Shown: one piece after another, positions 3,276-21,767 of the stretch | Layout of the letters: the number at the start of each line of letters is the position of its first letter | Position numbering within the stretch: position 1 is the stretch's first letter | From: Parasphingopyxis marina | Lineage (GTDB): Bacteria; Pseudomonadota; Alphaproteobacteria; Sphingomonadales; Sphingomonadaceae | Direction: 5' to 3' | Length of the DNA stretch: 64,000 bases | NCBI RefSeq assembly: GCF_014237875.1 | Contig: NZ_JACJVJ010000002.1 | Location: forward strand, 959,300 to 1,023,299 | Translations under genes and position numbers: made by a program | Notes under the pieces: generated by a model | What the model was told of the DNA's origin: nothing | The model's input: only the letters and a program-made list of their open reading frames with translations | Database searches by the model: none

Positions 3276-4498
3276 GCTTTCGCTCCAGCTTTCAGATAGT
3301 CGCGGGCCGCTGCAACGATCGTATCGGAGAATGCCTCGTCGTTGAAATGCGCGTCGACGGCATCCACGGGAACATCGTCCGGCACGACTTTGCGCAGATA
3401 GGCGGCGAACGGCCCGGGCTGACTGGTGTCGTAGAGATGGCCCTCGGGGCTGTCATGGTTGGAGAAGCCGCCCAGCGGCGTGAAGATGCGCACCGGCCCC
3501 GTCGCCTCGCCCACCATCTTCGCGAGATGATCGGCCAGTATCTCAAGCTCCTTTGCTTCGGTGCGAACTGCGGTCAGCGCCGGATTATGCACATGGTAGC
3601 GCTTGCCGGGAAACTGCTGCTCGGCGACGTCGATCGGCCCGGCGATGATGAAGTCCGCATTGCCCGGCGCGATGATGGTCGGCACGCCCTTGCGCAGGGC
3701 GGCCATGCCGCGCTCGGGGCCGGTATCGGCAAGGCCGCCGAGCAGATGGTCGACAATCTCGGTGGTCGAAAGATCGAGCGCAAGCGCAACGTTTCGGTCT
3801 TTCACGATCGCATCGAAGGTCGGCCCGCCGCCGCCCGAGCTGTGGAACACCATCACCTCGGCGCCATCGGCTTCCAGCGCCTCGCGGATGCGCCGCACCG
3901 ATTTCTCGGTCGTGCCCAGCGTCGTGATGAGGACCAGCGGCTTGTCGCCTTCATGGGCGGCGGGATCATATCCCTTGGCCATCCCGGCCATGGCGAGCGC
4001 GGCGTTGCGATACACGTCTCCGCTGATCGAATTGATGCCGGAAATGTCGGTAACCGCGTTGGACATGATGATGTCCTTCACGCCGACATAGGGCTGGGTG
4101 AAACCCGAAGCCATGGTCGAGACCATCAGCTTGGGAATGCCATAGGGAAAGGCCTGCATGATCGCGGTCGAGAGCGATGTGCCCATCGATCCGCCGACCG
4201 ATATGACGCCCGAAAAAGGCTCCGCTGCATGGCGTTCCAGCGCGATCTTCAGTGCGCCTTCGATCATCACCGCCTGGCACTTGCCTTCATGGCCGAGCGC
4301 GCGAACCTCTTCGATGGTCTTGCCGGCCGCCCCGGCTATCTCTTCGGGCGCGATCTCGGCGCCGCCCACCGTCTTGCGGATAGAAGGATCGAGATGGACC
4401 ACATCGACGCCGGCTTCCTCCATCACCGAACGCACGAAGCGGCCTTCCTCTTCCTTGGTGTCCTGGGTGATGATCAACAGCACCTTGGGCTTCGCCAT
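3272..4498 (-). CDS. Tm-1-like ATP-binding domain protein (UPF0261 family)
   Basis: A protein of 408 residues that fits the Tm-1-like/UPF0261 family along its length. It opens with a Rossmann-like strand (KVLLIITQDTKEEEGRF) and carries a Gly-rich ISVGGSMGTSL segment, an FHSSGGGGPTFD segment in mid-protein, and a C-terminal FTPLGGFSNHDSPEG motif. The family is named after a tomato protein that blocks tobamovirus replication; bacterial members bind ATP but their reaction is poorly known. Here it is the first gene of an operon of four overlapping cistrons with a complete biotin-dependent carboxylase. A role in ATP-dependent activation or binding of the carboxylase substrate is my inference. The IclR gene lies divergently 119 bases away and probably regulates it. 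Confidence 0.88.
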   Translation of the reverse strand: MAKPKVLLIITQDTKEEEGRFVRSVMEEAGVDVVHLDPSIRKTVGGAEIAPEEIAGAAGKTIEEVRALGHEGKCQAVMIEGALKIALERHAAEPFSGVISVGGSMGTSLSTAIMQAFPYGIPKLMVSTMASGFTQPYVGVKDIIMSNAVTDISGINSISGDVYRNAALAMAGMAKGYDPAAHEGDKPLVLITTLGTTEKSVRRIREALEADGAEVMVFHSSGGGGPTFDAIVKDRNVALALDLSTTEIVDHLLGGLADTGPERGMAALRKGVPTIIAPGNADFIIAGPIDVAEQQFPGKRYHVHNPALTAVRTEAKELEILADHLAKMVGEATGPVRIFTPLGGFSNHDSPEGHLYDTSQPGPFAAYLRKVVPDDVPVDAVDAHFNDEAFSDTIVAAARDYLKAGAKA

Positions 4499-4564
4499 CG
4501 CGCGCTTCCTCTCGCAATTATCTCGTTAATCCGATGATTCCCGCCCCGCGCCTCGCCATCAAGA

Positions 4565-4591
4565 TTGCCAGCTCGATTAGGCCGATATAAG
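4565..4591 (+). promoter_or_regulatory. Possible sigma70-type promoter in the divergent carboxylase/iclR spacer
   Basis: In the 119-base spacer between the Tm-1-like gene and the IclR gene, TTGCCA (4565-4570) and TATAAG (4586-4591) are 15 bases apart, about 26 bases upstream of the IclR ATG. Spacing is shorter than the usual 17. The spacer must also hold the promoter of the carboxylase operon and, by analogy with other IclR systems, the operator. I could not make out a convincing palindrome. Confidence 0.25.
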
Positions 4592-4617
4592 TTGCACAGA
4601 GTGAAATCGGGGTACAG

Positions 4618-5415
4618 ATGCTAGAACAGAAGGTCAAAACGATACGAGCGCTGGAGCGCGGCGTCGATGTGCTGATGGAAATCCGTCGCGCGCGCGCGGT
4701 GAGCCTGCACGATCTTCACGTCCGGCTCGGCCTGCCCAAGGCGACGCTGCTGCGCATCCTCGTCACGCTCGCGGGCAAGGGGCTGGTATGGCAGCGGCTC
4801 GCCGACGGCGCCTATCTTGCGAGCCACGTCCTCCAGTTCAGCCCGGCCGTCGATATCGCCGAGACCCTGGCCGAGGTCGCCACCGAACCGATGGCGGAAC
4901 TCTCGGCCAAGGCGAACTGGCCTTCGGTGCTTGGCGCGCCGCGGCTCGACCATATCGAGATCATCGAAACGAACAGCCCCTTGTTGCGGCTCGATTCCGC
5001 TACGCTCGGCCCGGTCGGGGTGCCGCTATCCTATATCCACACCGCCACCGGCCGCGCCTATCTCGCCGCCTGCGGCGAGCGAGAGCGCGATGCGATCATC
5101 GCGCGGCTGCGTCCGCCGGGCGCCAGCGACCAAAGCAAGGCGAAGCTCCACGCGATCCTCCGGGAAATCCGCGAGCGCGGCTATTCGCTCCGCGAGCCGC
5201 ATTTCGACTGGCCGGACCGGAACAAGCAGGCGGTCGTGCGGGACGGACGCCAGTCCATGGCGGTCGCCATCTATTCCCGCGACGAGGCGGTGGCGGCGCT
5301 CAACATCACCTGGCCGACCAAGCGGATCTCGACCGAGAAGGTGGTCGAGCGGCATTTGCAAACCCTCAGGGCGACCGCAGCGCGGATCGGCACCGCGCTG
5401 GAGCAGCTGAGTTAG
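4618..5415 (+). CDS. IclR-family transcriptional regulator
   Basis: A protein of 265 residues with an N-terminal winged helix (about 8-70, containing LHDLHVRLGLPKATLLRIL as helix-turn-helix) and a C-terminal IclR effector domain (HTATGRAYLAAC, then VVRDGRQSMAVAIYSRDEAVAALNITWP). These regulators usually control aromatic or organic acid catabolism and bind a pathway intermediate. The gene is divergent from the biotin-carboxylase operon and is followed at 109 bases by an MDR oxidoreductase and a VOC protein, so it may control both sides. The ATG at 4618 is preceded by GGGGTACAG. Confidence 0.93.
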   Translation: MLEQKVKTIRALERGVDVLMEIRRARAVSLHDLHVRLGLPKATLLRILVTLAGKGLVWQRLADGAYLASHVLQFSPAVDIAETLAEVATEPMAELSAKANWPSVLGAPRLDHIEIIETNSPLLRLDSATLGPVGVPLSYIHTATGRAYLAACGERERDAIIARLRPPGASDQSKAKLHAILREIRERGYSLREPHFDWPDRNKQAVVRDGRQSMAVAIYSRDEAVAALNITWPTKRISTEKVVERHLQTLRATAARIGTALEQLS

Positions 5416-5523
5416 GGCCTTTCACTTCGCCCTTCTCACTTCATCCTTTTCACCGGGCGAAACGCGATTCAATTGCGCCCACGCCCCCGCTTTGCCACTT
5501 CAGGGAAGAAGCAGGAGATGGAA

Positions 5524-6546
5524 ATGAAAGCGTGGCAACTCACCGAAGGCGCATCGTCGCTGGACGATCTTCACCTGGTCGAACTCGACAAGCCCGAGCC
5601 CGGACCCGGTGAGGTACTGATCAAGGTGCATGCCTGTTCGCTCAACTATCGCGACCAGGCGGTGATGACCGGCAATTATTTCGGCGGCCGCACGACGATG
5701 CCGCTGATCCCGCTGTCCGACGGCGCCGGAGAAGTCGAGGCGGTCGGTTCCGGTGTCACCCAGTTCGCGCCGGGCGACCGGGTCGCCGGCACCTTCTTCC
5801 AGAACTGGGACGACGGCCCGCCCAATCCTAGTGCCGGCCCCGCGCTCGGCGCGCCGCCGGCCAACGGCATGCTCGCCGAATATGTCGCGCTGCCCGAACA
5901 GGGCGTCGTCGCCATTGCCGAAAGCCTGAGCTTCGAGGAAGCGGCCACCCTTCCCTGCGCCGGCGTTACCGCCTGGCACGCGCTAATGGAGGGTCCGAAG
6001 GCGGCCGGGCCGGACTCGACCGTGCTGGTGCTCGGTACCGGCGGCGTCTCGCTGCTCGCGCTGCAGATCGCCAGGGCGCGCGGCGCAACCGTGATCGCGA
6101 CCTCGTCGTCGGATGAAAAGCTGGAGCGGGTAAAGGCGCTCGGCGCGGCCCAAGGCATCAACTATCGCGCAACGCCCGAATGGGGCGCGGAGGCCGCAAA
6201 GCTTTCGGGCAAGGGCGGCGCGGACCATGTCGTCGAGGTAGGCGGCGCGGGCACGCTCGCCCAGTCGATCGCCGCGGTCGGGTTCAACGGAGAGATTGCG
6301 CTGATCGGCGTGCTGACGCGCGAAGGCGATACTTCGCCGCACGGGCTGATGCTCAAGGGCGCATCGATCCGCGGCATCTTCGTGGGATCGCGCGGCATGG
6401 CCCGGCGGCTGAATGCTCTGATCGACGATAGCGGCTTCAAGCCGGTCGTCGACAAGGTCTTCCCGTTCGAAGAGGCCAAGGCCGCTTTCGAATATCAGTC
6501 CTCGCCGGAACTGTTCGGCAAGGTCGTCATCGCGGTTGGGAGCTAG
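5524..6546 (+). CDS. Zinc-type/MDR alcohol dehydrogenase family oxidoreductase
   Basis: A medium-chain dehydrogenase/reductase of about 340 residues, with a GroES-like N-terminal domain (PEPGPGEVLIKVHACSLNYRD) and a Rossmann domain (VLVLGTGGVSLLALQIARARGA). I see no structural-zinc cysteine cluster (the four closely spaced cysteines of classical ADHs), so it may be a zinc-free quinone-reductase-like or crotonyl-CoA-reductase-like MDR. It would reduce or oxidise an alcohol, ketone or enone with NAD(P)H. Two ATGs (5518, 5524) are in frame; I prefer 5524 because GGAG at 5514-5517 is then well spaced. The VOC gene follows after 5 bases, suggesting one transcript. Confidence 0.85.
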   Translation: MKAWQLTEGASSLDDLHLVELDKPEPGPGEVLIKVHACSLNYRDQAVMTGNYFGGRTTMPLIPLSDGAGEVEAVGSGVTQFAPGDRVAGTFFQNWDDGPPNPSAGPALGAPPANGMLAEYVALPEQGVVAIAESLSFEEAATLPCAGVTAWHALMEGPKAAGPDSTVLVLGTGGVSLLALQIARARGATVIATSSSDEKLERVKALGAAQGINYRATPEWGAEAAKLSGKGGADHVVEVGGAGTLAQSIAAVGFNGEIALIGVLTREGDTSPHGLMLKGASIRGIFVGSRGMARRLNALIDDSGFKPVVDKVFPFEEAKAAFEYQSSPELFGKVVIAVGS

Positions 6547-6551
6547 CGAAT

Positions 6552-7091
6552 ATGAAAACGCTTGGTTTCGGCCAACCCATCGGCGGCATCATGCAAACCA
6601 GCTTCGTCGTGAAGGATATTCGCGAAGCGATCGATTTCTGGGTGCGGGACGCCAATGTCGGCCCCTGGTTCCTGCTCGAAAGTTTCACGGGCGACGACCA
6701 GGTCTATCGCGGCGCGCAGTCCACTGCCGATGTCGCGATCGCGATGAGCTTTGCAGGCCATATGAATATCGAGCTGATCCAGCCCAAGGATGACAATCCC
6801 TCGGTCTATAAGGAAACCGTCGACCGGCTCGGCTATGGCTTCCACCATGTCGGCATCGCGCTCGAGGATGTCGATGCCGGCATCGCCGACTATGAAGCCC
6901 GCGGTTACGAACTGGCCTTTCGCGCCAAGGTGCCGACCGGCGGCGCGGTCGCCTATATGGACGGCGGGCCGGACAAGCCCGGTTTCGTCGAGCTGATCCC
7001 GGCCAATCCGGGGATGGACGCAGCGTTCACCGGCTTCTGGGAAGCCGCGCAGGGCTGGGACGGCAAGGACCCGATCCGCCCCTTCGGCTAA
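6552..7091 (+). CDS. VOC family protein (glyoxalase/dioxygenase fold)
   Basis: A protein of 179 residues with two beta-alpha-beta-beta-beta modules of the vicinal oxygen chelate fold. The first begins at MQTSFVVKDIREAIDFW and the second at GFHHVGIALEDVDAGIADYEARG. Family members are metal-dependent isomerases, epimerases, dioxygenases or resistance proteins; likely metal ligands here are the His of FHHVGI and the Glu of GFVELI. The ATG lies 5 bases after the MDR oxidoreductase stop. The pairing suggests a small catabolic or detoxifying unit under the upstream IclR regulator. The exact reaction is unknown. Confidence 0.85.
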   Translation: MKTLGFGQPIGGIMQTSFVVKDIREAIDFWVRDANVGPWFLLESFTGDDQVYRGAQSTADVAIAMSFAGHMNIELIQPKDDNPSVYKETVDRLGYGFHHVGIALEDVDAGIADYEARGYELAFRAKVPTGGAVAYMDGGPDKPGFVELIPANPGMDAAFTGFWEAAQGWDGKDPIRPFG

Positions 7092-7113
7092 GGCCCGTTG
7101 CTGCCGATAAAGA

Positions 7114-7150
7114 AAGGGGCGGGATCATCGCGATCCCGCCCCTTCTTTTG
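7114..7150. terminator. Strong bidirectional hairpin terminator
   Basis: A 13-bp perfect stem (AAGGGGCGGGATC at 7114-7126, complement at 7132-7144) with a 5-base loop is flanked by A-rich sequence on the left and CTTTT on the right. It sits between the convergent VOC gene and TonB-receptor gene, so it can terminate transcription from both sides. Confidence 0.85.
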
Positions 7151-7170
7151 GTTCGGCCTGGAAGCCGGCG

Positions 7171-9711
7171 CTAGAAGCTGCGCCGCACCGTCAGCGCCCA
7201 GGTACGCGGCCGGCCGGGCGAACCATAGACATGGCCCACCGCGAAGGCGTCGTTCACCTTGGTCGTCAGATAATAGCGATCGAAGATGTTCTGGACTTCG
7301 AGCGCCAGGCCCCAATCACCATTCCCCGATTCCCAGCTGATCCGGCCATTGGCGAGGAAATAGCCCTCGATCCGGTTATCCGCCGAAAGAACCGGGATCG
7401 GACCGCCGCCGCCGGGCTGGCTGAACGGCGCAACCGCGGCGACGTCGTTCGGCACCAGCAATTGGTCGACATTCCCCGCTTCGGTATAGATATGCGACTG
7501 GTAGGTGCCGTCGACCCGGAAGCTTAGCTCACCGCTGAAAACGTCCTGCACATCATACTGGATGCCGAAGCTCCACTGCCATTCGGGCGTGTAGGGCGTG
7601 ATATCGTCGATCGCCACGCCGGTGCTCGCCGTCGGGTCAATGCTCGTATACTGGAAATCGAGATAGCTGAGCGAGCCGTCGATGGTGAGATTGTCGATCG
7701 GGTTGATGAAGGTTTCGATCTCAAGCCCCTTCACCTCGGCCGAACCGACATTGGTCGGCCGCAGGCACGGCGCCTGCTGGCCGGCCGGAAGGTCGGCGCA
7801 GAAGGTGCTGAGCAGCACGATGTCGCTGTAATCGAAATAGAAGGCCGAAACGTTCAGCCGCATCATCCGATCGAACAGGTCGGATTTGAAGCCCAGTTCG
7901 TAGGAGGTGATGCTTTCGGGAACATGCGGCGTCGCCTGGCTCGGGAAGAAGGGCCGCGCATTGAAGCCGCCCGCCCGATAGCCGGTCGAAACCTGCCCGT
8001 AGATCAGGAATTCCGGTGAGAAGCGGTAATCGGCCGCGACGCGCCAGTCGAGCCGGCTGTTGGTGAAGACGGCGGTCGTGCCGTTGACCCCGAACAACAG
8101 GCAGTTGGGCTGGTTGCCGATATCCGTCGGGCCGGCCGTCGGCGCGCCGAGGAAGAAGTTACACGGCCCCTGAACCGGTGTCAGGTCCGGATTCCTCCGG
8201 CGGTACGCATATTCCTTCCGATCCCAGGACTGGCGAAGGCCGCCGGTCAGATGGAAATCGTCGGTGACGTTCACCGTGACGTTGGCGAACAGCGCCTCGT
8301 TCCGCGAGGGCGTCGGGTCCGGCCCGTGGATGAAGTCGAGCTCGGCATAGGGAAGATCGACGCGCGCGGTGTAGAAACCGTCGGTGTCGAAATAGAAGCC
8401 GCCGATCGTGAAATCGATCAGATCGTTGGCCAGCGTGCCGGACAGCCGGATTTCCTGGCTGATCTGCTCGTTGGTCTGGTTTTGGTTGAGGATATTGGCG
8501 GCCAGCGGTGCGCCGTCGACGTCATAGGACCAGTCGGATTCATATTCGCGCCACGAGGTAATCGACTTGAGCGCCAGATTATCGGCCAGATCGATATCGA
8601 CCGTCAGCGCGATGCCGTAATTGTCGAGGTCCGAATGCGGGTCGAGGGTCAGCGGGTGATACGGGAACTGGCTGTCGCCCGGATACAGATCGTTGAACGT
8701 CGAATAGGTGACGTAACGCCGATCGTAGCCGGTCAAGGTGTCGCAGCTGTTCTGGCCATAGGGCACGAACTGGCAGTTATAGGGAACCGTATTGCCGTCG
8801 GTGCCGCGCAGCCAGGGACGGGTGGGATCGTTGTTGAGCTCGCCCGCCGCATTGGCATAGAGCAAGGTCGCCACGCCGGCTTCGCTGCGTTCTCGCGTAT
8901 AATCCGCCGCGAGATTGACCTCGACCGAGGGGCTGGGCGTCCAGTTGAACGCGATCCGTCCGGCCGCGATCGAATGGCCGCCAAGCGTGCCCAATACCGG
9001 ATCGGAACCGGGGGCCTGGGTGGGTACGTTCGAGCCGGGATGGGTCAGCGCATAATCGAGCCGGGTAATATAGCCGTCCTGGTTGCGGCTGACGCCGGAA
9101 ACGCGCACCGCCAGATTGTCGGTCAGGCCGATATCCATCATGCCGCGGAAATCGAGCCGGTCGTAGGATCCGTAGGTCGCTTCGAGCCAACCCGAATTGT
9201 CGCCCCGGGGGCGCTGCGAGAAAATCTTGATCGCGCCGCCGATCGAGTTGCGCCCGGCAAGCGTGCCCTGCGGCCCGCGCAGGATCTCCACACGTTCGAC
9301 GTCGAGCAGGTCGAGCAGCGAACCGGTCAGGGTCGGCAGGTAGACATCGTCGATATAGATGCCGACGCCCGGTTCCAGCGCGAAGTTCGGATCGTTCTGG
9401 CCGATGCCGCGGATATAGGCGATCAGGCCCGAACCATATTCCTGGTTCTGCGCGGCAAGGGTGACGTTCGGCGCCTGCGCCGCGACACTGGAGATGTTGG
9501 TCTGTCCGCGTGCCTCCAGCATCTCCGCGTTGACGGCGGTGATGGCGAGCGGCGTATCCTGCAGATTCTGTTCGCGGAACTGCGCGGTAACGACGATCAC
9601 CGAGGAACCCGAGTTTTCGGTAGCGGCGCCTTCGGTCTGGGACCAGGCCGGGGTCGCCAACCCGGCGCAAAGCGCGAATGTAGAAATGGCGACGAGCGTG
9701 TTCTTCTTCAT
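7171..9711 (-). CDS. TonB-dependent receptor (outer-membrane uptake channel)
   Basis: A protein of about 846 residues. The signal peptide (MKKNTLVAISTFALCAGLATPAWSQ region) starts at ATG 9711, preceded by a clear GGGGAGGAT ribosome site; longer in-frame starts lack one. A TonB-box-like SVIVVTAQFREQNLQDTPLAIT segment leads into the plug domain (VGIYIDDVYLPTLTGS, VERVEILRGPQGTLAGRNSIGG), then a 22-strand-type barrel ending in the aromatic C-terminus (VRRSF) expected for Bam insertion. It would import a substrate in the nanomolar range using TonB-ExbBD energy. There is no STN signalling domain. It is divergent from a second receptor. The substrate is unknown, but a neighbouring catabolic operon suggests an organic compound rather than a siderophore. 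Confidence 0.93.
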   Translation of the reverse strand: MKKNTLVAISTFALCAGLATPAWSQTEGAATENSGSSVIVVTAQFREQNLQDTPLAITAVNAEMLEARGQTNISSVAAQAPNVTLAAQNQEYGSGLIAYIRGIGQNDPNFALEPGVGIYIDDVYLPTLTGSLLDLLDVERVEILRGPQGTLAGRNSIGGAIKIFSQRPRGDNSGWLEATYGSYDRLDFRGMMDIGLTDNLAVRVSGVSRNQDGYITRLDYALTHPGSNVPTQAPGSDPVLGTLGGHSIAAGRIAFNWTPSPSVEVNLAADYTRERSEAGVATLLYANAAGELNNDPTRPWLRGTDGNTVPYNCQFVPYGQNSCDTLTGYDRRYVTYSTFNDLYPGDSQFPYHPLTLDPHSDLDNYGIALTVDIDLADNLALKSITSWREYESDWSYDVDGAPLAANILNQNQTNEQISQEIRLSGTLANDLIDFTIGGFYFDTDGFYTARVDLPYAELDFIHGPDPTPSRNEALFANVTVNVTDDFHLTGGLRQSWDRKEYAYRRRNPDLTPVQGPCNFFLGAPTAGPTDIGNQPNCLLFGVNGTTAVFTNSRLDWRVAADYRFSPEFLIYGQVSTGYRAGGFNARPFFPSQATPHVPESITSYELGFKSDLFDRMMRLNVSAFYFDYSDIVLLSTFCADLPAGQQAPCLRPTNVGSAEVKGLEIETFINPIDNLTIDGSLSYLDFQYTSIDPTASTGVAIDDITPYTPEWQWSFGIQYDVQDVFSGELSFRVDGTYQSHIYTEAGNVDQLLVPNDVAAVAPFSQPGGGGPIPVLSADNRIEGYFLANGRISWESGNGDWGLALEVQNIFDRYYLTTKVNDAFAVGHVYGSPGRPRTWALTVRRSF

Positions 9712-10126
9712 ATTATCCTCCCCTTGTAGCGAGCCTTTCTTTTTTTGGGCGCCGGCACCGTGTCGTTCGGACATCGATACCGGGCCCTTGAAAGGTCTCG
9801 CTCAGCAAAGCCGCATGGGCCCTAAAGCTGCCGCACTCGCTCAAATAGTTAGTAGTGCGACATAACAATTTACTTGTATGCCGAAACGGAACGCTGCTCA
9901 ATAGGCGCGTAACATCCGTACAAAAATTGCCGCGCGATTATGGTGTTCTTGCAACGGTCGAGGCTTTTCGGGCGCGTTGAGGCTCTGGGAATCGACATTG
10001 CACGCAGTGAAATCCTTTCCGGATTTCCGTTTGTGTTGCGTACATAGACTTACGCAAATCCCCCCATTCGGTAGAATCCTATCCGAGATCGCCAAGACGA
10101 TCGTGAAATTAAGGTGGGAGGAAGCC
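9712..10126. promoter_or_regulatory. Divergent spacer between two TonB-receptor genes (415 bases)
   Basis: No gene is visible here. The centre (about 9840-9960) is clearly richer in A+T than the surrounding genes, as expected for back-to-back promoters. Each end has a strong ribosome site: GGGGAGG (minus strand, just upstream of 9711) and GGTGGGAGGAAG (upstream of 10127). I could not assign exact promoter hexamers or an operator. Confidence 0.5.
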
Positions 10127-12661
<2,535 letters not shown>

Positions 12662-12672
12662 ACGATACCAAC

Positions 12673-12709
12673 AAGGGGTCGGTCCTTCGGGGTCGGCCCC
12701 TTTTCTTTT
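12673..12709 (+). terminator. Rho-independent terminator after TonB receptor
   Basis: AAGGGGTCGG (12673-12682) pairs, with G-U wobbles, with TCGGCCCCTT, and the stem is followed by TTTTCTTTT (to 12709). It lies just after the receptor stop and before the cupin gene. Confidence 0.7.
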
Positions 12710-12738
12710 GACTACCGCCATCCGACGAGGAGCGCATC

Positions 12739-13272
12739 ATGCCCGAAGCCGCCGATTCCGAATTCTGGAAGGATATCAAGCCGATCCCGCAGGTCTTCCG
12801 CGAAGGTGCGATGCCCGAAGTCTATGCCTCGAAGATCGCCGAGGGCGATCCCCGCTATTGGGTGCCGATTTCGGAAACCGTGTCGTCGAAGCCGGTTTGG
12901 ATCAGCCTCGCCAAGAATATGTGGGCGGACGTGCTCATGGCCACCGAAGCGGGGCTGGTGAACCGTCACTATCACCCGCACCCGATCTGGGCGTACACGA
13001 TCAGCGGCAAATGGGCCTATCTCGAGCATGACTGGACGGCGACGGCCGGCGATTTCGTTTATGAAACGCCCGGCGAAAGCCATACCCTCGTCGCCTATGA
13101 CCATGAGGACCCGATGAAGGTGTTTTTCGTCGTGTCGGGCCCGCTGATGTGGCTCGACGAGACCGGCGAAACCGTCGGCCATTACGATGTGTTCGATTAT
13201 GTCGCCGCCGCCCGCGCGCATTATGACGCCGTCGGCATCGGCGCCGACTATGTCGATACGCTGATCCGCTAG
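12739..13272 (+). CDS. Cupin, 2,4'-dihydroxyacetophenone dioxygenase (DAD)-like
   Basis: A protein of 177 residues, the same length as the characterised DAD enzymes that cleave the C-C bond of 2,4'-dihydroxyacetophenone. The cupin barrel carries NRHYHPHPIW (His ligands of motif 1), a glutamate in WAYLEHDW and PGESHTLV (motif 2 His), a plausible Fe-binding set. It has no signal peptide, so it is cytoplasmic. It lies 77 bases after a TonB receptor and beyond a terminator, so it may have its own promoter. The family assignment is by overall resemblance; the reaction should be treated as family-level. Other DAD-like cupins act on unrelated substrates. Confidence 0.7.
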   Translation: MPEAADSEFWKDIKPIPQVFREGAMPEVYASKIAEGDPRYWVPISETVSSKPVWISLAKNMWADVLMATEAGLVNRHYHPHPIWAYTISGKWAYLEHDWTATAGDFVYETPGESHTLVAYDHEDPMKVFFVVSGPLMWLDETGETVGHYDVFDYVAAARAHYDAVGIGADYVDTLIR

Positions 13273-13316
13273 ACGGCGATGCCGGCATTGCCGGCCGGCC
13301 AGCGGCATTCGGCGGT

Positions 13317-13751
13317 TCAGGTCACCCGGGTGTCGAAATATTCGATCATCATCGCGATGCCCTCGATGGTCAGCGCATAGCCGAGCTCGCCGCCCTCTTC
13401 CGGGGCTTCTCCGCGCACCAGTGACTGGGCGATCAGCTGTTCGATGCAGCGCTCCGCGATGTCCCGCCCGACGCTGAGCTCCCGCACCAGATCGGAAATC
13501 GTCATCTTGCGGCCCTCGAACTCCGCATTCACGAGTTCGAGAAAGAAGCTCCAGCGATCGCCCTGGAACGTGCCCGGACCGAAAACGCGGTCGCGGCGCT
13601 TTCGCTGGGCGAGCTCGGACTGGAGATTGTGAACGGTCGACCAATAATCGGCCGGAGCCGCCGGGACCTTATCGAACTTGTCCCTGAGCGCGCCCGGGAT
13701 AGTTTCGCCGCGTTTGGGCGCTCCGTCTTCGTTTTCCGCCCGAGCGGTCAT
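13317..13751 (-). CDS. Winged-helix DNA-binding protein (MarR-like), coupled to the acyltransferase gene
   Basis: A protein of 144 residues whose C-terminal half looks like a winged helix (MTISDLVRELSVGRDIAERCIEQLIAQSLV, then a wing and ALTIEGIAMMIEYF). The N-terminal 40 residues are charged and probably disordered. The ATG at 13751 overlaps the stop of the upstream GNAT-type gene (ATGA), so the two are co-translated. A longer open frame extends upstream but would run through the GNAT gene and is discounted. It is a likely regulator, perhaps of the operon it sits in. I do not recognise a named family. Confidence 0.7.
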   Translation of the reverse strand: MTARAENEDGAPKRGETIPGALRDKFDKVPAAPADYWSTVHNLQSELAQRKRRDRVFGPGTFQGDRWSFFLELVNAEFEGRKMTISDLVRELSVGRDIAERCIEQLIAQSLVRGEAPEEGGELGYALTIEGIAMMIEYFDTRVT

Positions 13752-14983
13752 GCGCGCAGCATCCGCGAATTCTGACGGATCTGGGCGGCTACCTCGTCCG
13801 AGGCATGAAGGTTGGAAAGCTCCAGCGGCCCCTGCTCGTCCCAATGGCCTTCCTGGCGGATCGCGATCATCGGATCGCCGCCCCAGCGGATCGCTTCCGC
13901 GTCGGGCTCGAGATCGACGACGATTTCGCGATATTCGACATTGGCGAAGGAAAAGGGCTCGCTGTCCTCGACAACGCGAAATCCGAAAACGTTCCAGAAC
14001 CGGACGAGATCGGCCCGCGAATGGCCGTAGACGCGGGGGAAGCCCTTGCGGCGGCAATGGTTGAGCGCGGTGCGCGCCAGCCGGTAGGCAAGCCGCGTGT
14101 TGCGGTATTTGGGCAGCACCGCGACCCGTTCCAGCTTCGCAAATTCGCCGAAATAGCGGATCCGCGCACAGCCCGCCGCTTCGCCGTCGACAAGGCCCAG
14201 CAGATGCGTGCCGCAGAAATCGTTGCCGTCGAACTCCTCGCTATAGAGGCACAGCTGCTCTGCCATATAGGTGGCCGAGCGGACGGCGAAGACCTTCATC
14301 AGATCCTCCAGCGTCTTGACGCAGCGGACGGAGAGGACAGGTTTTTTGCGCTCGTCCCGCCGAGGGGGGAGTTCCGGCGGAGACGAGCGCATTTCGGGCA
14401 GCGAAACCAGTAACCAGCCCGGAGCACCGGGATAAAATTGACTGGCTGGCTGGAAGCCGACCGAACGGTTGAGCCGTTCAGCATGGGGATTGACGGCGCG
14501 CGAGAAGATCGCGCAGCCATCGGGGGCGAGTTCGTCGATACATTCGCCGATGGCGCCCATCGCGCGGGCCAGGCGGCCCGGCGCGTAGGTAAGCCAGAGA
14601 TAAATCGCTTCGGGCCGTTCGCCCGCCGCGCAAACCATGCCGGGATCGGGCCGCGCACCGACCAGATCGCCCGCGACCAGCGCCGAGGCGCCGCGTTCGT
14701 TGAGCGGCAGATAGGCGAAGAAGCCGAAGCATTTTTCCCCCCGCGCATCGACGATAAGCCGGATGGTTTCGGGGTTTTTGGCAAGCACGGCGCAGATTGC
14801 CTCGTCGCTCGCCAGGGCCAGATCGCCGCGCGCCTGGTCGATCCACGGTTTGATCCGATCCCACCCTACCCTTTCGAGATGGCAGCCCCGATGGGAGCGC
14901 GAAATCGAGTGTTCGACCTTCGCGGAGAACTGTCCCGCAGCGGCAAAGTCTGGATCGAAGCCTTGACCAAAGTCCTGTTTCAT
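13748..14983 (-). CDS. Tandem GNAT-fold acyltransferase (FeeM / autoinducer-synthase-like C-terminal domain)
   Basis: A protein of 411 residues with two acyltransferase-like halves. The C-terminal half (about 225-360) has AVRSATYMAEQLCLYSEEFDGNDF, CARIRYFGEFAKLERVAVLPKYR and a closing FWNVFGFRV. This pattern is shared by N-acyl amino acid synthases of the FeeM type and, more distantly, by acyl-homoserine lactone synthases. The N-terminal half (about 40-200) also looks GNAT-like (RLNRSVGFQPAS near its end) but is weaker. It may transfer an acyl group from acyl-ACP or CoA to a small amine. It is co-translated with a winged-helix protein and divergent from a LysR regulator. Substrate unknown. 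Confidence 0.72.
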   Translation of the reverse strand: MKQDFGQGFDPDFAAAGQFSAKVEHSISRSHRGCHLERVGWDRIKPWIDQARGDLALASDEAICAVLAKNPETIRLIVDARGEKCFGFFAYLPLNERGASALVAGDLVGARPDPGMVCAAGERPEAIYLWLTYAPGRLARAMGAIGECIDELAPDGCAIFSRAVNPHAERLNRSVGFQPASQFYPGAPGWLLVSLPEMRSSPPELPPRRDERKKPVLSVRCVKTLEDLMKVFAVRSATYMAEQLCLYSEEFDGNDFCGTHLLGLVDGEAAGCARIRYFGEFAKLERVAVLPKYRNTRLAYRLARTALNHCRRKGFPRVYGHSRADLVRFWNVFGFRVVEDSEPFSFANVEYREIVVDLEPDAEAIRWGGDPMIAIRQEGHWDEQGPLELSNLHASDEVAAQIRQNSRMLRA

Positions 14984-15102
14984 CGGTAGCTCATTCCCTG
15001 TTAACCAACCATCGGGCGATTTCAGCGATATAGCGTGTTCAAAAGCTAAAGAGGTGAGCCAAAAAATCGTCCGGGGTGGTCGAAACGTGGGTGAAAAGGG
15101 TA

Positions 15103-16086
15103 ATGCCCGAAGCGAATTATCATTGGGATGACATGAAAGCGTTTCAGGCCGTGGCCGACGCCGGAAGCATCCGTTCGGGCGCGGTCGGCCTCGGTGTAGC
15201 CGTCGCGACGATGCGATATCGTATCGAGCGGCTCGAGAAACAATGCGGCGAATGCCTGTTCCGGCGCACCAAGGCCGGCATCGAACTGACAGCGGCGGGA
15301 AAGAAAATGCGCCGCAGCGCGCTGGCGATGAAGGAAGCCGCCTATGCCTCTCCCGAAGGCCAGCAGGATATCCTCGTCAAACCCGGCCAGATAAGCATCG
15401 CCTGCAGCGAAGCGATCGGCTCGCTATGGCTGACGCCGCAGCTCAATTCCCTCAAATCCCTGCTGCCGGAGCTTACGATCGGCCTGCATTGCGATTTCAA
15501 CCTCTCCAACGATCTCAGCGAGAGCGCGGACATATCCATCGTCTTCACGATGCCCAGCGACGACGATCTCATCATTTCCCGTCTCGGGACGTTGCATTTC
15601 ATGTGCTACGCTTCGAACGAATATATCGAACGACACGGCGCGCCCCGATCGCTTGAGGATCTGCGCAACCATAATTTTATCGAGCAGGACGCGCCGGGCA
15701 TGAACGCCTCGATGCGCGATTTCCTGGTCGGCGGCGGCGGCGAGACAAATTTCGTTACCTTGCGGACCAATTCCAGCCCCGCGTTGTATTTCACGGTGGC
15801 CAATGGCAGCGGCATCGCCGCCATGCCGACCTATTTCTCGCATATCGCGCCCAAGCTGCGGCCGATCGACATCGGCGCGCGGCTGCGGTTCGACATGCAT
15901 TATTGCTATCACCGCGATGCCCGTAACAGTCCCTCGGTTCGCACCGCAATCGACTGGCTGAAATCGGCGTTCGATCCGGTCAAATATCCCTATTTCGGCG
16001 ACGAGTTCGTCCATCCGGACGATATCCGCCGCCCCGACCGCGACCAGAAGGTCGTGCCGCTCTTCCCGGGAATGGCCGAGCACTAA
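15103..16086 (+). CDS. LysR-family transcriptional regulator
   Basis: A protein of about 327 residues. The N-terminal helix-turn-helix (MKAFQAVADAGSIRSGAVGLGVAVATMRYRIERLEK, positions about 9-44) is followed by a periplasmic-binding-like effector domain. The usual LysR motif is slightly degenerate (AVGLGVAVATMRYRI instead of AARxLxxSQPAVSxxI). I start at the ATG at 15103 because translation from the upstream GTG adds nine residues ahead of the conserved domain. It is divergent from the GNAT-type gene and convergent with the A-PCP-TE gene, so it is a candidate regulator of this accessory block. Confidence 0.88.
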   Translation: MPEANYHWDDMKAFQAVADAGSIRSGAVGLGVAVATMRYRIERLEKQCGECLFRRTKAGIELTAAGKKMRRSALAMKEAAYASPEGQQDILVKPGQISIACSEAIGSLWLTPQLNSLKSLLPELTIGLHCDFNLSNDLSESADISIVFTMPSDDDLIISRLGTLHFMCYASNEYIERHGAPRSLEDLRNHNFIEQDAPGMNASMRDFLVGGGGETNFVTLRTNSSPALYFTVANGSGIAAMPTYFSHIAPKLRPIDIGARLRFDMHYCYHRDARNSPSVRTAIDWLKSAFDPVKYPYFGDEFVHPDDIRRPDRDQKVVPLFPGMAEH

Positions 16087-16114
16087 ACCCTCTCGATCAC
16101 GAGGGCCCCGCCGA

Positions 16115-18700
16115 CTAACGCGCCTCGGCCAACCGAATGTGCCTGATCAATTTCCCCGCCAGCGAATTCAGGTTGCTGCCGGTGAAATATTGGCCATGGC
16201 CTCCGCCGGTCCGTTCGATCGTCCGATTTTCGAAACCGGCAATACCCTCCGAACTGCCGTGCTTATCCGAGGAATAGACCTCCGCCGTCACGGAATCCTC
16301 TCCGTAGAGCAGCAAAGTGGGGCCGTCATAGTGCCGCTTGTTGAAGGTCCATTCGAGAAGCGCCAGCAAAGTGGGTTCGCGCCTGAGCTGCTGCAGCCGC
16401 CGCGCCAGTTGCACGGCCATGATGCCGCCCTGGCAGTTTCCCCCCAGCGAAAACCGTCCCGTCGGGCAAAGCGCGAGAATTTCCGAAAGATATAATTCGC
16501 AAACGATATCGAGCCCGGATTCGGCGTATTTCTCGAGCGGCACGAGGCCGACCAGCGACCGGAACCCGTAAATCGGCTGATCGGGCCCAAGTTGTTTCGC
16601 CAGCGACTTGAGTTCGCCCCCTGCCTGGCAAATCCAGAACAGCGGCGGCCGGGATCCGCCAAGATTATGGCCCACCGCGAAGCCGCCCTCGAACGGATGC
16701 TCGCCCGGCCAGCTCGCGCTGGCCGTCCGCAGCGCGCGATCCAGCGCCGCGATGTCGCGCGCTTGCGTAGGCAATCCTTCCGGTTCCGCAATCGCGACTT
16801 CGGCTTCGCCCGCACCGACCAGCTCGGCGAGATGACCGAGCGTCGGATTTTCGAAAAACCGGTCCGGGCTAATGTGCCGCTTCAGATGATGTTCGATTGC
16901 GACCATCAGATGCACGGCAGCCAGCGAGTCTCCGCCTTCCTTGAAGAAATCGCTGTCGCCGGCCGGCAGGGCCTTCAGGCCCAGGCTCTCCTGCCAGATG
17001 CGCGCCAGCCAATCGGGCGAGGCCGGATCGGGATGCGGCAGGCCGCCACGGGTTTCCGGGATGGGGAATGACGGCGAGGCGAGCAACGAAACCAGCGCCT
17101 GGCGATCGATCTTGCCCGTTCGCGTCCGGATGAAATGCCGTTCCCTGATCGGCATCACCGCATGGACCTTCACCCCCACGGCTTTCGCGACCGCGCGCTG
17201 GATATCCGCCGCGACCCGGGCGAGGTGATCATGGTCGAAGTATGTCGGCGTGTAGAAGACGACGATCCGGTCGGTATTATGCTCCGCCTCGCGATACGGT
17301 ATGGCGGCGACCAGCGTCGGCCGGACACCGTCGATGTTGCGGACGCAATATTCGATGTCCTCCGCCGAAATATTGCGCGAATTGACGATGATGACCGATT
17401 TTTCCCGGCCCGTCAGGACGAGCCCGGCATCGTCGATAAACGCAAGATCGCCGGTATCGAACCAGCCATCCACGGTGGCCGGCTCCCCGGACCCGAAATA
17501 GCCGGAGAACATGCGCGAGGACGATCGTGCGAGGATGCGGCCCACTTCGCCCCTCTTGGCGATTTCGCCGTCTTCCTTCGCGATCCGCAAGCTCCAGGAA
17601 AGCGCGCACTCGGAAAAGCGGGCCTTGCCGCCGGGCAGGTTGGCCGGATCCTTCAACTCGTCGGGCGAAAGGCGCGCCAGGCAGAGCGTGCCGGTCTCGG
17701 TCATCGAATAGACGAAGATGAATTTGACCTCGGTCCCGGCCGAAGCGCGGATATGTTCGGCGAGTTCGAGCAGCGTCTTGGGAACGATCATTTCCGTGCC
17801 GACGAAGATCGTCTTGAGCGGTGAGCCGGTCCATCGCCGGGGATCGGCGCGGAAACATTCATTGAGCTTTTCGGCGGTCGATGAACTCAGGCCGACATCG
17901 CTGACCTGGTAACGGGAAACCAGATCGAGCCAGGCCCCCGGATTGGCCATCATCCGTCCCGCGTTGAGGTAGATCGTGCGGACGCCGATCGGCAGCAACA
18001 GCCGGACTCCGCCGACGCTCGATATCGCCAGCTGGTTCAAATGCGTACGCCGGTCGATCACATCGCCGTCGAAAAACCGTTCGATCAGCGCCTGCGGCCC
18101 GATCCGGGCGAGTTTTGCCGTCCCCGTCGTGCCGGACGTCTGGATCAGCAACTCGCTGGCATGATGGATAAGGGTGCGCTCGTTATCCGTCGATACATCC
18201 GTCCGCAGTAGCGCGGCAATATCGAGAATGCTCGCCGGTTGCTCCGCAAGGCTGCCGAAAAACGGCGGTTCCGTTATGACGATGGACGCCCCGGTCGTCG
18301 CCACGAGTTGCTCGAAGCGCGTCATGAACTGATCGCGGTCCCGGTAGAAATACATGGTCGAAACCGGCAGGATGGAATAGCCGCTCATCAGGCAAGCCCA
18401 TGCCGCCTTTATGTAATTGATAGCGCTTTCGAAACAGAGAAGGACATGCGGCCTGTGCGGCCCTGCGTGCCGTTTCAGCCCGGCTATGACGCGCTCCGCG
18501 TCATCGTATAGCTCGCCATAGCTGATCGTATGCTCGATGCCGTCGAGCCCCACTTCGGTAAAAAGCCCGTGTCGATTGGCCATCGCCAGGGTGGCGATAT
18601 AGGCAGCCAGGGAACGCGGCAGTTTCGTGTCGGGATCGCGATCGCGGCCGCACATTTCCGCAAGATCGGTGGCGGATGGGACAAGGATATCGTCGATCAT
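16115..18700 (-). CDS. NRPS-like enzyme: adenylation - carrier protein - thioesterase (Cys nucleophile)
   Basis: A protein of 861 residues with three domains and no condensation domain. The adenylation domain has core motifs QTSGTTGTAK (A3), YSMTETG (A5), FDTGDL (A7), TGREKSVIIVNSRNISAEDIE (A8) and RTGKIDR (A10 lysine). The carrier domain has its phosphopantetheine serine at S592 (EGGDSL). The thioesterase has GGNCQGG, where C756 replaces the usual serine nucleophile, and a matching catalytic His in GGGHGQYF. The layout is like single-module aryl- or amino-acid dimerising synthetases, so it probably loads one carboxylic acid and releases it as an ester, amide or dimer. It is preceded by 34 bases from the GT51-fusion gene on the same strand, a likely operon. 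Confidence 0.9.
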   Translation of the reverse strand: MIDDILVPSATDLAEMCGRDRDPDTKLPRSLAAYIATLAMANRHGLFTEVGLDGIEHTISYGELYDDAERVIAGLKRHAGPHRPHVLLCFESAINYIKAAWACLMSGYSILPVSTMYFYRDRDQFMTRFEQLVATTGASIVITEPPFFGSLAEQPASILDIAALLRTDVSTDNERTLIHHASELLIQTSGTTGTAKLARIGPQALIERFFDGDVIDRRTHLNQLAISSVGGVRLLLPIGVRTIYLNAGRMMANPGAWLDLVSRYQVSDVGLSSSTAEKLNECFRADPRRWTGSPLKTIFVGTEMIVPKTLLELAEHIRASAGTEVKFIFVYSMTETGTLCLARLSPDELKDPANLPGGKARFSECALSWSLRIAKEDGEIAKRGEVGRILARSSSRMFSGYFGSGEPATVDGWFDTGDLAFIDDAGLVLTGREKSVIIVNSRNISAEDIEYCVRNIDGVRPTLVAAIPYREAEHNTDRIVVFYTPTYFDHDHLARVAADIQRAVAKAVGVKVHAVMPIRERHFIRTRTGKIDRQALVSLLASPSFPIPETRGGLPHPDPASPDWLARIWQESLGLKALPAGDSDFFKEGGDSLAAVHLMVAIEHHLKRHISPDRFFENPTLGHLAELVGAGEAEVAIAEPEGLPTQARDIAALDRALRTASASWPGEHPFEGGFAVGHNLGGSRPPLFWICQAGGELKSLAKQLGPDQPIYGFRSLVGLVPLEKYAESGLDIVCELYLSEILALCPTGRFSLGGNCQGGIMAVQLARRLQQLRREPTLLALLEWTFNKRHYDGPTLLLYGEDSVTAEVYSSDKHGSSEGIAGFENRTIERTGGGHGQYFTGSNLNSLAGKLIRHIRLAEAR

Positions 18701-18734
18701 TGAGCCCCCCAGCTCTCCGGAAGAAACCTTCCGC

Positions 18735-20288
18735 CTATCCCTGAGCGGGAGGCGTCAACGGCACCAGTGCGCGTCCCGGCTGCCGGGATGGCCCGCGATC
18801 GAGCCGCTGCAGGATAAATTCGACCCTGCGTTGCCGCATTTCGGGATTCCCGGCGGTTTGGCAACGGGGCACGGGATAGCGTAGTGAGGCGACCAGGAAC
18901 GCCGCCGTCTCGCGATCGGGTATGCCGACAATGTCGAGCCGCTGCCGCGCCTGCTCATAGCCGTTGGCCCGCCAGCCGAAATAGGCGATGTTGAGATATG
19001 CCGATGCGAGCGCATCCTTGTCGGCGGCGCTGGAGCAATGCAGCGCGAAGAGAATTTCCTGGACCTTGCGGCCGACGCTTTTCCTGCGCTTCCCGGTGAT
19101 GGTTCGCACCAGCTGTTGCTCGACCGTGCTCGCGCCCTGTTTCTTGCCGGCCGTCACGGTCTTGAACACAGCCCTGCATATGGCGATCAGGTCGCAGCCG
19201 CGGTGACGGCGATAGCGCTTGTCTTCGCCGGCGATCAGCGCGTCGATCATCACCGAGGGGATATTGTTACGCTTCCTGGCTTCGTCGCAAAGGATAGCCA
19301 GTTGCGCATCGAATGCCTTGCGCTGGCTCGGCCAGAGAAGTTTCGACAGTGCGCCGGCGGCAAAACCCGACCGGAGGCGGGCGGGCCGGGCCATATGGCG
19401 ATCATTGTACCAGAACCGATAGGCGCCGAATGATTTTCCCAGCCACCAGCACGCCGAGCCATCTCCCTGCGCGTTGCCGATTTCGGTTTGTGTTTGCACC
19501 GGCGTGACGACGGCTCCCTCTTCCCGGACCGCCCGTTCGGCTCCGGTTTCCGGAAGCACCATCGCAATATGGCCATGCTCGTCTTCGTCCAGCGTCTTGC
19601 CGACGATGAGTCCGCAATTTCCTGCATTGGCCCGTTCCTGCAGATCGGTCAGGTCGCGCGCGGGGCGCCAGCCGAAATGGCGTCCGTAGCTGACGAGCCA
19701 GTCGAACAGGTCGTTGGCGGGCAACTCTTCGAATAGCTCATGCCAGTGTGAGCCCCGGTCCCACGCGGGCATCTTCCACCATGTTCGCGGCAGGTAGCAA
19801 CCGGCCAAATAGCAAAAGTCGCTCGCATAGATGTTGCAGAAATTGTCCGTGCCGTCCGCTTGATAGCGGACCGAGCGCCGCACATCGAGATCGCCGGCGA
19901 TTTCCAAAAGGCTTTCGCGATCCCTGCGGCCGCTGGTGCGATGATGAAGCAGGCCGATTTCGCCGATGGGAAGGTTCCGCCCGGCAATGTCGCGACGGCA
20001 GGCCCAGGGCGCCGCTTCCTGAAGATAAATCGCGCGCAGGCGCGTGACGTCGAAAGCGCTCTGGAGATTGTGGCATTCGCCCGAAACCGGAGCCAGCTCG
20101 GATGGATCCTTGTCTAATAGCAAATGAAATCCATCGTTTAGCGTTGTTTTCTGTCTCCGGCAGTTATAAACGAGAAACCATATAACGCAACGTCTGCCGC
20201 ACCTTGTGCCGATGCGGGACTGTCTCGCGAGGACCGCGGCCCGGTGTCGGCGTCGGCGCGCTTTGCAAATGGCGCCCATCTGCCGCAT
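18735..20288 (-). CDS. Fusion of NlpC/P60-like (CHAP-type) hydrolase and GT51 peptidoglycan glycosyltransferase
   Basis: The maximal open frame is 517 codons. Residues about 140-295 resemble an NlpC/P60-superfamily peptidoglycan hydrolase: candidate catalytic Cys151 in FCNIYASDFCYLAG and His240 in EHGHIAMVLPE. Residues about 340-470 are a GT51 glycosyltransferase with all its motifs: GEDKRYRRHRG (catalytic Glu355), GASTVEQQL, the RKVQE segment (Glu411) and YLNIAYFG. Together they would join a cell-wall cutting and a glycan-polymerising activity. I see no transmembrane helix or signal peptide, unlike MtgA and class A PBPs. The first 55 codons look Arg-rich and shadow-like, and a TTG at 20123 may be the true start. 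It is likely the first gene of an operon with the A-PCP-TE enzyme. Confidence 0.78.
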   Translation of the reverse strand: MRQMGAICKARRRRHRAAVLARQSRIGTRCGRRCVIWFLVYNCRRQKTTLNDGFHLLLDKDPSELAPVSGECHNLQSAFDVTRLRAIYLQEAAPWACRRDIAGRNLPIGEIGLLHHRTSGRRDRESLLEIAGDLDVRRSVRYQADGTDNFCNIYASDFCYLAGCYLPRTWWKMPAWDRGSHWHELFEELPANDLFDWLVSYGRHFGWRPARDLTDLQERANAGNCGLIVGKTLDEDEHGHIAMVLPETGAERAVREEGAVVTPVQTQTEIGNAQGDGSACWWLGKSFGAYRFWYNDRHMARPARLRSGFAAGALSKLLWPSQRKAFDAQLAILCDEARKRNNIPSVMIDALIAGEDKRYRRHRGCDLIAICRAVFKTVTAGKKQGASTVEQQLVRTITGKRRKSVGRKVQEILFALHCSSAADKDALASAYLNIAYFGWRANGYEQARQRLDIVGIPDRETAAFLVASLRYPVPRCQTAGNPEMRQRRVEFILQRLDRGPSRQPGRALVPLTPPAQG

Positions 20289-20352
20289 GGCCGGGTGCGT
20301 GCTGTTCCATCGGCTTTCGGACTTCTAACGCGGCGACAGGAGCCATTTCGCG

Positions 20353-20937
20353 GTGATCCCAAAAGCGGCATGGCTGGCCAGTCGACTGGCGGTAAGAGCG
20401 CGGCGGCTCTTGCCCTACCGGCGTGCCATATGGCCGTTGACCGCTCCGCGCGAGGAACGCGCCAAAAATTTCGCCCGTGAACGTTTCAAGGCGCAAATCC
20501 GGCAAGCCGAAAGTGGGTTGGACGACGGTTTCGAGAGCGCGAACTCAAGCGCGGCCGGCCGTTACCAGTTCATCCGGTCCACTTTCATCAATGTCTACCG
20601 CGCCGCCTATCTGGCCGTCGATCCGTCCGACGATGAAATCTGGGCGCTGCGCCTGGATGTTTCCGTCCAGGAGCGTCTGATGGACCATTCACTCGATCAA
20701 TATGAACGGGCGCTCGGCCGCGCCGGGCTGCCCGTGACGTCCGGCAATCTCTACCTCATTCATTTTTTCGGACAGCGGACCGCCACGCATCTCCTTCGGG
20801 CGGATCGGGATTCGCCGCTCGCCGACCATGTTTCGGAGAAGGTGCTGGCGGTAAATCCGTTCCTTGGCGGAAAGACGGTGGGCGAAGCGGTCGAGGATAT
20901 CCGCGGCCGCGTCGGCGATCGCACGCCCTTTGCCTGA
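20353..20937 (+). CDS. Lytic transglycosylase-like (lysozyme-fold) protein
   Basis: A protein of 194 residues starting at GTG, with AGGAG (20338-20342) ten bases upstream. The probable catalytic glutamate is Glu53 in RQAESGLDDGFESAN, followed by SSAAGRYQFIRSTF. That is the Glu then Ser-rich, (G)xYQF pattern of SLT and phage-type transglycosylases. A later helix with LIHFFGQRTATHLL and the NPFLGGKTVGEAV tail are also seen in phage tail or lysis-associated transglycosylases. There is no signal peptide or membrane anchor, so it must be exported by another route or released at lysis. It lies between, and on the opposite strand to, two other peptidoglycan enzymes, and its stop is adjacent to the amidase stop. 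Confidence 0.72.
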   Translation: MIPKAAWLASRLAVRARRLLPYRRAIWPLTAPREERAKNFARERFKAQIRQAESGLDDGFESANSSAAGRYQFIRSTFINVYRAAYLAVDPSDDEIWALRLDVSVQERLMDHSLDQYERALGRAGLPVTSGNLYLIHFFGQRTATHLLRADRDSPLADHVSEKVLAVNPFLGGKTVGEAVEDIRGRVGDRTPFA

Positions 20938-21369
20938 CTAAAGGTCGGTCTCGACGTCGAAACTGGGGCAGGCCTTGGCGACGTTCGGAAAATCGCGATG
21001 GCCGCAGACCCGCGCATCGGGATATTTCTCCAGCAATTCTGCAACCACCCGTCGAAGCGCCTTTCTCTGCGCCGTCGTGCGCGTATCTTTCGGGCATTTG
21101 TCGGCATCGATCCCCCCGACATAGACGACGCCTATCGAATGGCCGTTATGGCCGTAGACATGCGCGCCGACCACATGTTCCGGCCGGCCGCTCTCCACCG
21201 TTCCGTCCAGGCGCACGACATAGTGATAGCCGATATCATCCCAGCCATTTTCCAGATGCAGCGCACGAATGTCGTCCGCCGATACATCGCGCCCTTCTTC
21301 GCTGGCGGTGCAGTGGATCACGATGTCGGTGATCCGCCGCTTTTCCGTTCCGTCGCCGGCCTCAGGCAA
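20938..21369 (-). CDS. N-acetylmuramoyl-L-alanine amidase (T7 lysozyme / Amidase_2 type)
   Basis: A protein of about 143 residues with the zinc ligands of T7 lysozyme: His in VIHCTA, His in VCGHRDF and Cys in KACPSFD. The DIGYHYVVRLDGTVESGRP and GAHVYGHNGHSIGVVYVGG segments are typical of phage endolysins. It should cut the amide between MurNAc and L-Ala. The only start I find is TTG at 21369, with no strong ribosome site, so translation may be weak. There is no signal peptide. It is convergent, stop-to-stop, with the lytic transglycosylase. Together they look like a phage-derived lysis pair. Confidence 0.85.
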   Translation of the reverse strand: MPEAGDGTEKRRITDIVIHCTASEEGRDVSADDIRALHLENGWDDIGYHYVVRLDGTVESGRPEHVVGAHVYGHNGHSIGVVYVGGIDADKCPKDTRTTAQRKALRRVVAELLEKYPDARVCGHRDFPNVAKACPSFDVETDL

Positions 21370-21682: not shown

Positions 21683-21767
21683 TGGTGCAGAAGAGGACTC
21701 GAACCTCCACGTCCATACGGACACCAGCACCTGAAGCTGGCGCGTCTACCAATTCCGCCATCTGGGC
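21683..21767 (-). tRNA. tRNA-Leu(CAG), acceptor stem two bases short on 3' strand
   Basis: The minus strand reads as a complete class II tRNA-Leu: D arm, anticodon arm (CCAGC-TTCAGGT-GCTGG, anticodon CAG), the long variable arm, and a T arm with GTTCGAGTCC. The encoded CCA is present. The 5' acceptor strand is GCCCAGA, so the 3' strand should be TCTGGGC, but the sequence reads TCTGC then A and CCA. Two G residues are missing, leaving only four good pairs. All other arms match the E. coli tRNA-Leu(CAG) in length. It may be a damaged gene, an assembly error or an altered functional tRNA. Confidence 0.85.

Follow-up and report, generated by a model that had tools for sequence, protein, structure and literature searches.

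A phage-lysin-type Cys/His domain joined in frame to a GT51 glycosyltransferase domain beside a tRNA-Leu integration hot spot: a candidate wall-attack protein

In the 64,000-nucleotide stretch of DNA analysed here (the window), one unbroken reverse-strand frame of 517 aa (18735-20288), with neither a stop nor a frameshift, joins an N-terminal Cys/His half to a C-terminal GT51 half, and such a fusion of lysin and GT51 was met once, only here, among the genomes, plasmids and phages searched. The preferred reading, held tentatively and with slightly less than even confidence, is that the gene is phage-derived wall-attack cargo, in which a phage-lysin-type Cys/His hydrolase and a small soluble GT51, two genes of mobile elements, were joined in frame within a cassette at a tRNA-Leu hot spot. 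The kinship of both domains appears well supported by sequence comparison; the mechanism, and with it the enzymatic activity, localisation, lethality and purpose of the fusion, is presumed. A polypeptide that combines a wall polymerase domain lacking any anchor with a wall cutter of phage type would represent a new architecture, and the protein would offer a test of whether GT51 enzymes can work on the cytosolic side or as factors of wall attack. Open-licence papers, as far as their titles and the beginnings of their abstracts tell, describe neither a lysin-GT51 fusion nor a small mobile GT51 system.

The features of the locus, in window positions, are:
16115..18700, reverse strand: AMP-binding/carrier/thioesterase-like gene, starting 34 bases past the stop of the fusion gene
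18735..20288, reverse strand: full open reading frame of the fusion
18735..20123, reverse strand: probable coding part of the fusion gene, with a TTG start at 20123 and a codon score that is coding from near residue 60
18801..19274, reverse strand: GT51 domain, residues 339-496, with E355, GASTVEQQL, E411 and YLNIAYFG
19392..19394, reverse strand: in-frame ATG (M299) at the domain junction, near the start position of stand-alone small GT51s
19401..20033, reverse strand: putative phage-lysin-type Cys/His domain, residues ~86-296 as drawn from alignments, with C151, H240 and E247
20353..20937, forward strand: divergent 194-aa gene of phage lytic-transglycosylase type (phrog_4067, E 4.1e-15)
20938..21369, reverse strand: Amidase_2 gene of phage endolysin type (phrog_822, E 3.1e-61)
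21684..21767, reverse strand: tRNA-Leu(CAG), an integration hot spot in congeners

Open frame and domain junction

The first-pass annotation had claimed a Cys/His half and a GT51 half in one frame, and this was borne out, the 517 aa being uninterrupted and C151, H240, E355, GASTVEQQL, E411 and YLNIAYFG all standing at their numbered positions. From about residue 60 onward most of the frame shows coding-like codon use, and codon scores are non-coding for residues ~21-60; the first ~55 residues are probably non-coding. These non-coding scores make it probable that the start of translation is near an in-frame TTG at 20123 (residue 56), upstream of which no clear ribosome-binding site was seen that would fix the start. 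A membrane-helix-like stretch is absent from the fusion, whose Kyte-Doolittle maximum over 19-residue stretches is 0.97 in comparison to 2.0-2.5 in the four other GT51 proteins of the genome, so that the lack of a membrane anchor noted earlier is upheld, and the hydropathy scan revealed no signal-like stretch either. PADLOC, covering known defence families, returned no match for the fusion and likewise none for the 194-aa neighbour, the Aliarcobacter GT51 P0003, the N-domain protein of L039 and the neighbour gene of L008; P0004 gave a weak Cyclase match (E 0.0054).

The main rival explanation takes the gene for a remnant that no longer functions: in the lysis region of a decaying prophage, a stop codon would have been lost by chance and a lysin gene thereby joined to a moron GT51 gene. 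It is considered rather unlikely. The codon score of the fusion gene, 0.167 per codon, is the second lowest among the genes listed in the window, the phage-type neighbours come without a recognised holin or integrase, and the fusion was seen once, all of which would fit decay; nevertheless, the long frame has remained uninterrupted through both domains, each half retains its catalytic-type residues, and codon use is coding-like from about residue 60 on, though weak at the junction (0.06 for residues 301-320).

The junction bears also on whether the halves might be separate genes, a point raised by the first-pass annotation: no stop or frameshift parts them, whereas M299 leaves room for split translation. 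The frame would then give rise to two proteins: a lysin, whose end would lie near residue 296, and a GT51 translated from M299 onward. N-domain relatives do end at about the matching position and stand-alone small GT51s begin near M299 in alignments, but there is no stop codon between the halves and no clear ribosome-binding site was seen by eye before M299, and split translation is regarded as quite improbable.

The two domains and their relatives

No family for the N-terminal domain itself was found in Pfam, NCBIfam or PHROG. Its relatives are encoded on Hymenobacter and Azospirillum plasmids (38-40% identity, tblastn) and in the genomes G039 (43%) and G203 (41% identity), to which profile searches add genome G487 and ten viral contigs; in the scan of viral contigs a single sequence as query returned no locus and an alignment as query returned the ten. 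The readable phage proteins are stand-alone and measure about 200-235 aa. Across 15 aligned rows, one of them the window's, only the phage row L052 departs at the positions of C151 and H240, each of which is thus conserved in 14. Two genes upstream of the N-domain gene a PHROG holin was recognised in L045 and L050 (E about 1e-10), that of L045 being matched by Pfam as well, and in L044 the two small genes upstream of the N-domain gene had no PHROG match. In L047 the N-domain gene precedes a tail sheath gene (Pfam) and does not lie within a lysis cassette. Among the bacterial relatives, L043 carries an SH3_3 domain above the Pfam cut-off, and the L007 and Hymenobacter proteins have SH3-like stretches below it.

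Because of the stand-alone phage relatives, the holin neighbours, the kept Cys and His and the SH3 domain in a bacterial relative, the N-terminal domain is read as a plausible phage-lysin-type Cys hydrolase, on its kinship with phage lysins and not on NlpC homology. Against this reading it can be said that no named family or structure backs hydrolase activity of the domain: solved structures gave no credible match by sequence and no match whatever by profile. A profile-profile comparison with NlpC and CHAP, in which one N-domain row (L039) was mis-framed, had no match, and its CHAP against NlpC control had none either, NlpC against NlpC succeeding. The domain had earlier been called NlpC/P60-like, of which a Cys/His wall hydrolase remains plausible and membership of the NlpC/P60 family was given up at the level of profiles, none of ten domain members matching PF00877 at E<=1. 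CHAP (PF05257) was rejected in the same way (0 of 10 members at E<=1). When the own genome was searched, PF00877 matched at two other places only and PF05257 at one other place only, none of them at the fusion. With phage endolysins (NlpC/P60, CHAP and related Cys hydrolases) the fusion shares the conserved Cys and His, the lack of a signal-like stretch and relatives in phage lysis cassettes; it differs from them in an N-terminal domain outside the Pfam, PHROG and NCBIfam families and in the GT51 at its C-terminus.

Some companions of the N-domain genes were noticed besides. In L047 and L053 the gene lies inside a tail gene cluster (L047:5863-6495 and L053:5863-6495), the sheath neighbour in L053 being similar by eye. 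The companions in L007, L008, L039 and L052 look lysozyme-like by eye; no lysozyme-type Pfam and no PHROG match was obtained for them, and in BLAST against the 194-aa protein of the window they never did better than E 0.77. In G039 the genes for a phage sheath and a gp19-type tube lie roughly 3 kb away from a protein of the N-domain family (L073:8071-9867 and 12966-15658), a locus that is possibly an extracellular contractile system.

A further explanation makes the fusion an antibacterial effector, injected or secreted, whose two domains both act on the wall; it could draw on this nearness, about 3 kb, of the L073/G039 protein to contractile-tail sheath and tube genes, as well as on the fusion having no anchor or signal-like stretch. 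The own genome, however, has no match to phage sheath (PF04984) or VipB (PF05943), which disfavours the contractile form of the effector idea put forward in the first-pass annotation, and no immunity or delivery gene was recognised near the fusion; an effector is therefore held to be improbable.

The C-terminal half is matched by PF00912 over residues 339-496 (E 1.3e-30, 106.5 bits against a cut-off of 27), and the full set of catalytic motifs claimed for it earlier was confirmed: the glutamates of ED.R and RKxxE (E355, E411), GASTVEQQ and YLNIAYFG are all present. The two motif glutamates are presumably the catalytic ones known from work on PBP1b. PBP1A is the closest solved relative (E 1.2e-15), and the half would be expected to polymerise lipid II. 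Loss of catalytic residues in homologues, which the first-pass annotation had weighed, is not borne out, catalytic-type residues being kept in relatives of both halves. With MtgA/Mgt and class A PBPs the fusion has in common that it matches PF00912 and contains the two glutamates and the motifs of the lipid II site; in contrast to these enzymes, the fusion has no membrane helix, carries a joined Cys/His domain and possesses the motifs Q[LFV]VR and [KR]YP, which are absent from 34 of 34 comparison GT51s.

GT51 enzymes were matched in 394 of the 396 genomes of the order sample (taken as Sphingomonadales), and among the matches listed there all but the window and two N-domain hits lie in PBP-sized frames of at least 628 aa. 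The small GT51 kin of the fusion include a 202-aa protein of an Aliarcobacter plasmid, a 185-aa protein of a viral contig that also bears a GPD tail gene, and a 246-aa frame in G977, the one genome among 397 others of the phylum sample to match at E<=1e-30, together with an E. coli plasmid gene and further viral contigs. The small mobile GT51s are:
viral contigs L075 and L081-L088
plasmids L040 and L079
genome G977

A profile built from eight small GT51s, with the window left out and the near-identical rows L079, L084, L086 and L088 omitted, ranked the window first of 35 (149.3 bits, the next reaching 105.3), and Q[LFV]VR and [KR]YP occur in eight of eight small GT51s and the window versus none of 34 other GT51s. 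In a tree of 44 rows (near-identical L084, L086 and L088 omitted), for which the program warns of long branches including that of the window, the window and nine small GT51s split from the 34 others with support 100/97; the nine without the window hold together at 90/76, and the window joins between the small ones and the others. Against a place in the small lineage it must be noted that the window is the most PBP-like of the small GT51s, scoring 115.7 bits with a profile of the 34 others where the rest score 80-114. It nevertheless appears well supported by these comparisons that the GT51 half belongs with a lineage carried mostly by phages and plasmids. Maximal hydropathy is below 1.5 in the window, L040, L075 and L081 (L081 being less clearly without a membrane segment) and 1.7-2.6 in the small GT51s L077, L079, L082, L083, L085 and L087. 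The fusion resembles the small mobile GT51s in giving their profile its best score, in the common motifs and in lacking a membrane segment (as L040 and L075 do, and L081 less clearly); it differs from them in that no nucleotidyltransferase-like or transmembrane (TM) partner was recognised in the window and a lysin-type domain is fused instead.

Neighbourhood, occurrence and proposed working

The divergent 194-aa neighbour has phage matches of up to 42.5%, and the amidase neighbour is up to 55.9% identical to phage amidases. Next to the fusion neither holin nor integrase was seen, and two weakly hydrophobic small ORFs near it had no Pfam match. The tRNA-Leu surroundings were compared with those of five of nine congeners, over 11-18 kb in each on the fusion side of the tRNA gene. 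The gene across tRNA-Leu from the fusion is common to all five, and none of the 16 window genes between 1465 and 21369 was matched in these stretches (tblastn E<=1e-8). Each of the five carries an integrase beside tRNA-Leu, standing directly at the tRNA in L067, L068, L069 (where the match is in pieces) and L070 and about 10 kb off in L066. Relatives of three of these congener integrases had no match in the window at E<=0.01, and no att repeat of the tRNA-Leu was found in the window.

Since both halves of the fusion and both hydrolase neighbours are of mobile-element type and stand at an integration hot spot, a mobile origin is the simplest account, and the fusion, the amidase and the lytic-transglycosylase-like gene most likely form a wall-attack cassette, either cargo or the remnant of an integrated element. 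The first-pass annotation mentioned neither the mobile-element character of the two halves nor these two neighbours. A host enzyme of wall or glycan remodelling, working with the downstream adenylation/carrier/thioesterase gene, would account for that gene being on the same strand 34 bases further on; the absence of any match to the 16 window genes (1465-21369) beside tRNA-Leu in the five congeners (11-18 kb, tblastn E<=1e-8), however, and the largely phage and plasmid kin of both the N-domain and the GT51 make such a role highly improbable.

The census of the fusion in other genomes that the first-pass annotation had suggested gave no second case in the genomes, plasmids and phages searched. 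GT51 is fused to the N-domain in one of 16 N-domain loci (the own, G039, G203, G487, two plasmids and ten viral, L051 having no readable ORF). The first genome census scored three candidates per genome, and the N-domain was then searched by itself; with the own genome counted, it occurs in 3 of 396 genomes of the order and 2 of 385 of the class, the two samples overlapping. When the whole fusion was run as a tblastn query against 72,556 plasmid and 50,697 phage records, nowhere was 80% of its length matched, and a pattern scan of genome contigs, which may omit the own genome, found two loci, both GT51-only.

Under the preferred reading of phage-derived wall-attack cargo, the protein would be made in the cytosol with no signal and no anchor. 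Its N-terminal half would cut wall peptides once the wall is reached through a holin, membrane damage or lysis, and its GT51 half would bind lipid II and polymerise it to glycan without cross-links, so that the cutting of the wall would be coupled to the loss of lipid II, the precursor for its repair.

A side observation concerns the genes beyond the fusion: at 13748-18700 the window has the adenylation/carrier/thioesterase-like gene and a GNAT gene that matches FeeM weakly (E 0.076), with a LysR-type gene lying between the two, and together they may be a small cluster for acyl conjugates.

Partner genes of the small mobile GT51s

In L075, L040 and L081 a conserved protein of about 220 aa is encoded directly downstream of the small GT51, with 46% and 32% identity to the Aliarcobacter one. 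It is termed nucleotidyltransferase-like after a GS...SDLD motif and a weak NTP_transf_2 Pfam match (E 0.012) in one member, the other two having none. In the TM-anchored group of small GT51s, a gene for a TM protein of about 180 aa precedes the GT51. The pairs are:
GT51 and nucleotidyltransferase-like protein, on two viral contigs and one plasmid: L075:4935-6177; L040:4971-6225; L081:5854-7166
TM protein and TM-anchored small GT51: L082:5375-6525; L083:5271-6465; L085:5327-6489; L087:1-1187; L079:5324-6486

When the two partner families served as queries against viral contigs, 2 and 7 loci respectively were obtained, all on contigs that also have a small GT51, the two of the nucleotidyltransferase-like partner being the L075 and L081 contigs themselves, and therefore each of the nine viral small-GT51 loci has one partner. 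A phage- and plasmid-borne lineage of small GT51s with tightly linked partners is in this way exposed (9 of 9 viral contigs, which include three near-identical copies and so represent about six distinct sequences). Neither partner family was recognised in the window (best E 0.17), and the nucleotidyltransferase-like query had no match in the own genome at E<=0.001.

The pair of GT51 and nucleotidyltransferase-like protein is a candidate toxin-antitoxin or defence pair, and systems of small GT51 and partner could be wall-directed phage defence, exclusion or toxin systems. It may further be proposed, as an unlikely generalisation, that small mobile GT51s are the active part of undescribed wall-directed accessory systems in three architectures, two of them pairs with either a nucleotidyltransferase-like or a TM protein and the third a fusion with a lysin. 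A GT51 without a membrane segment would then act from the cytosol on lipid II of the inner leaflet, trapping both precursor and carrier lipid, and would therefore be a lipid II-consuming toxin or an abortive-infection effector, of which the nucleotidyltransferase-like protein might be the controller.

Two minor observations concern the TM-anchored group. The L082 pair lies just upstream of a Pfam phage holin, and for the gene after this holin, a lysozyme by eye, Pfam gave nothing at E<=0.1. Of 5426 E. coli genomes, 2 contain a near-identical copy of the L079 pair.
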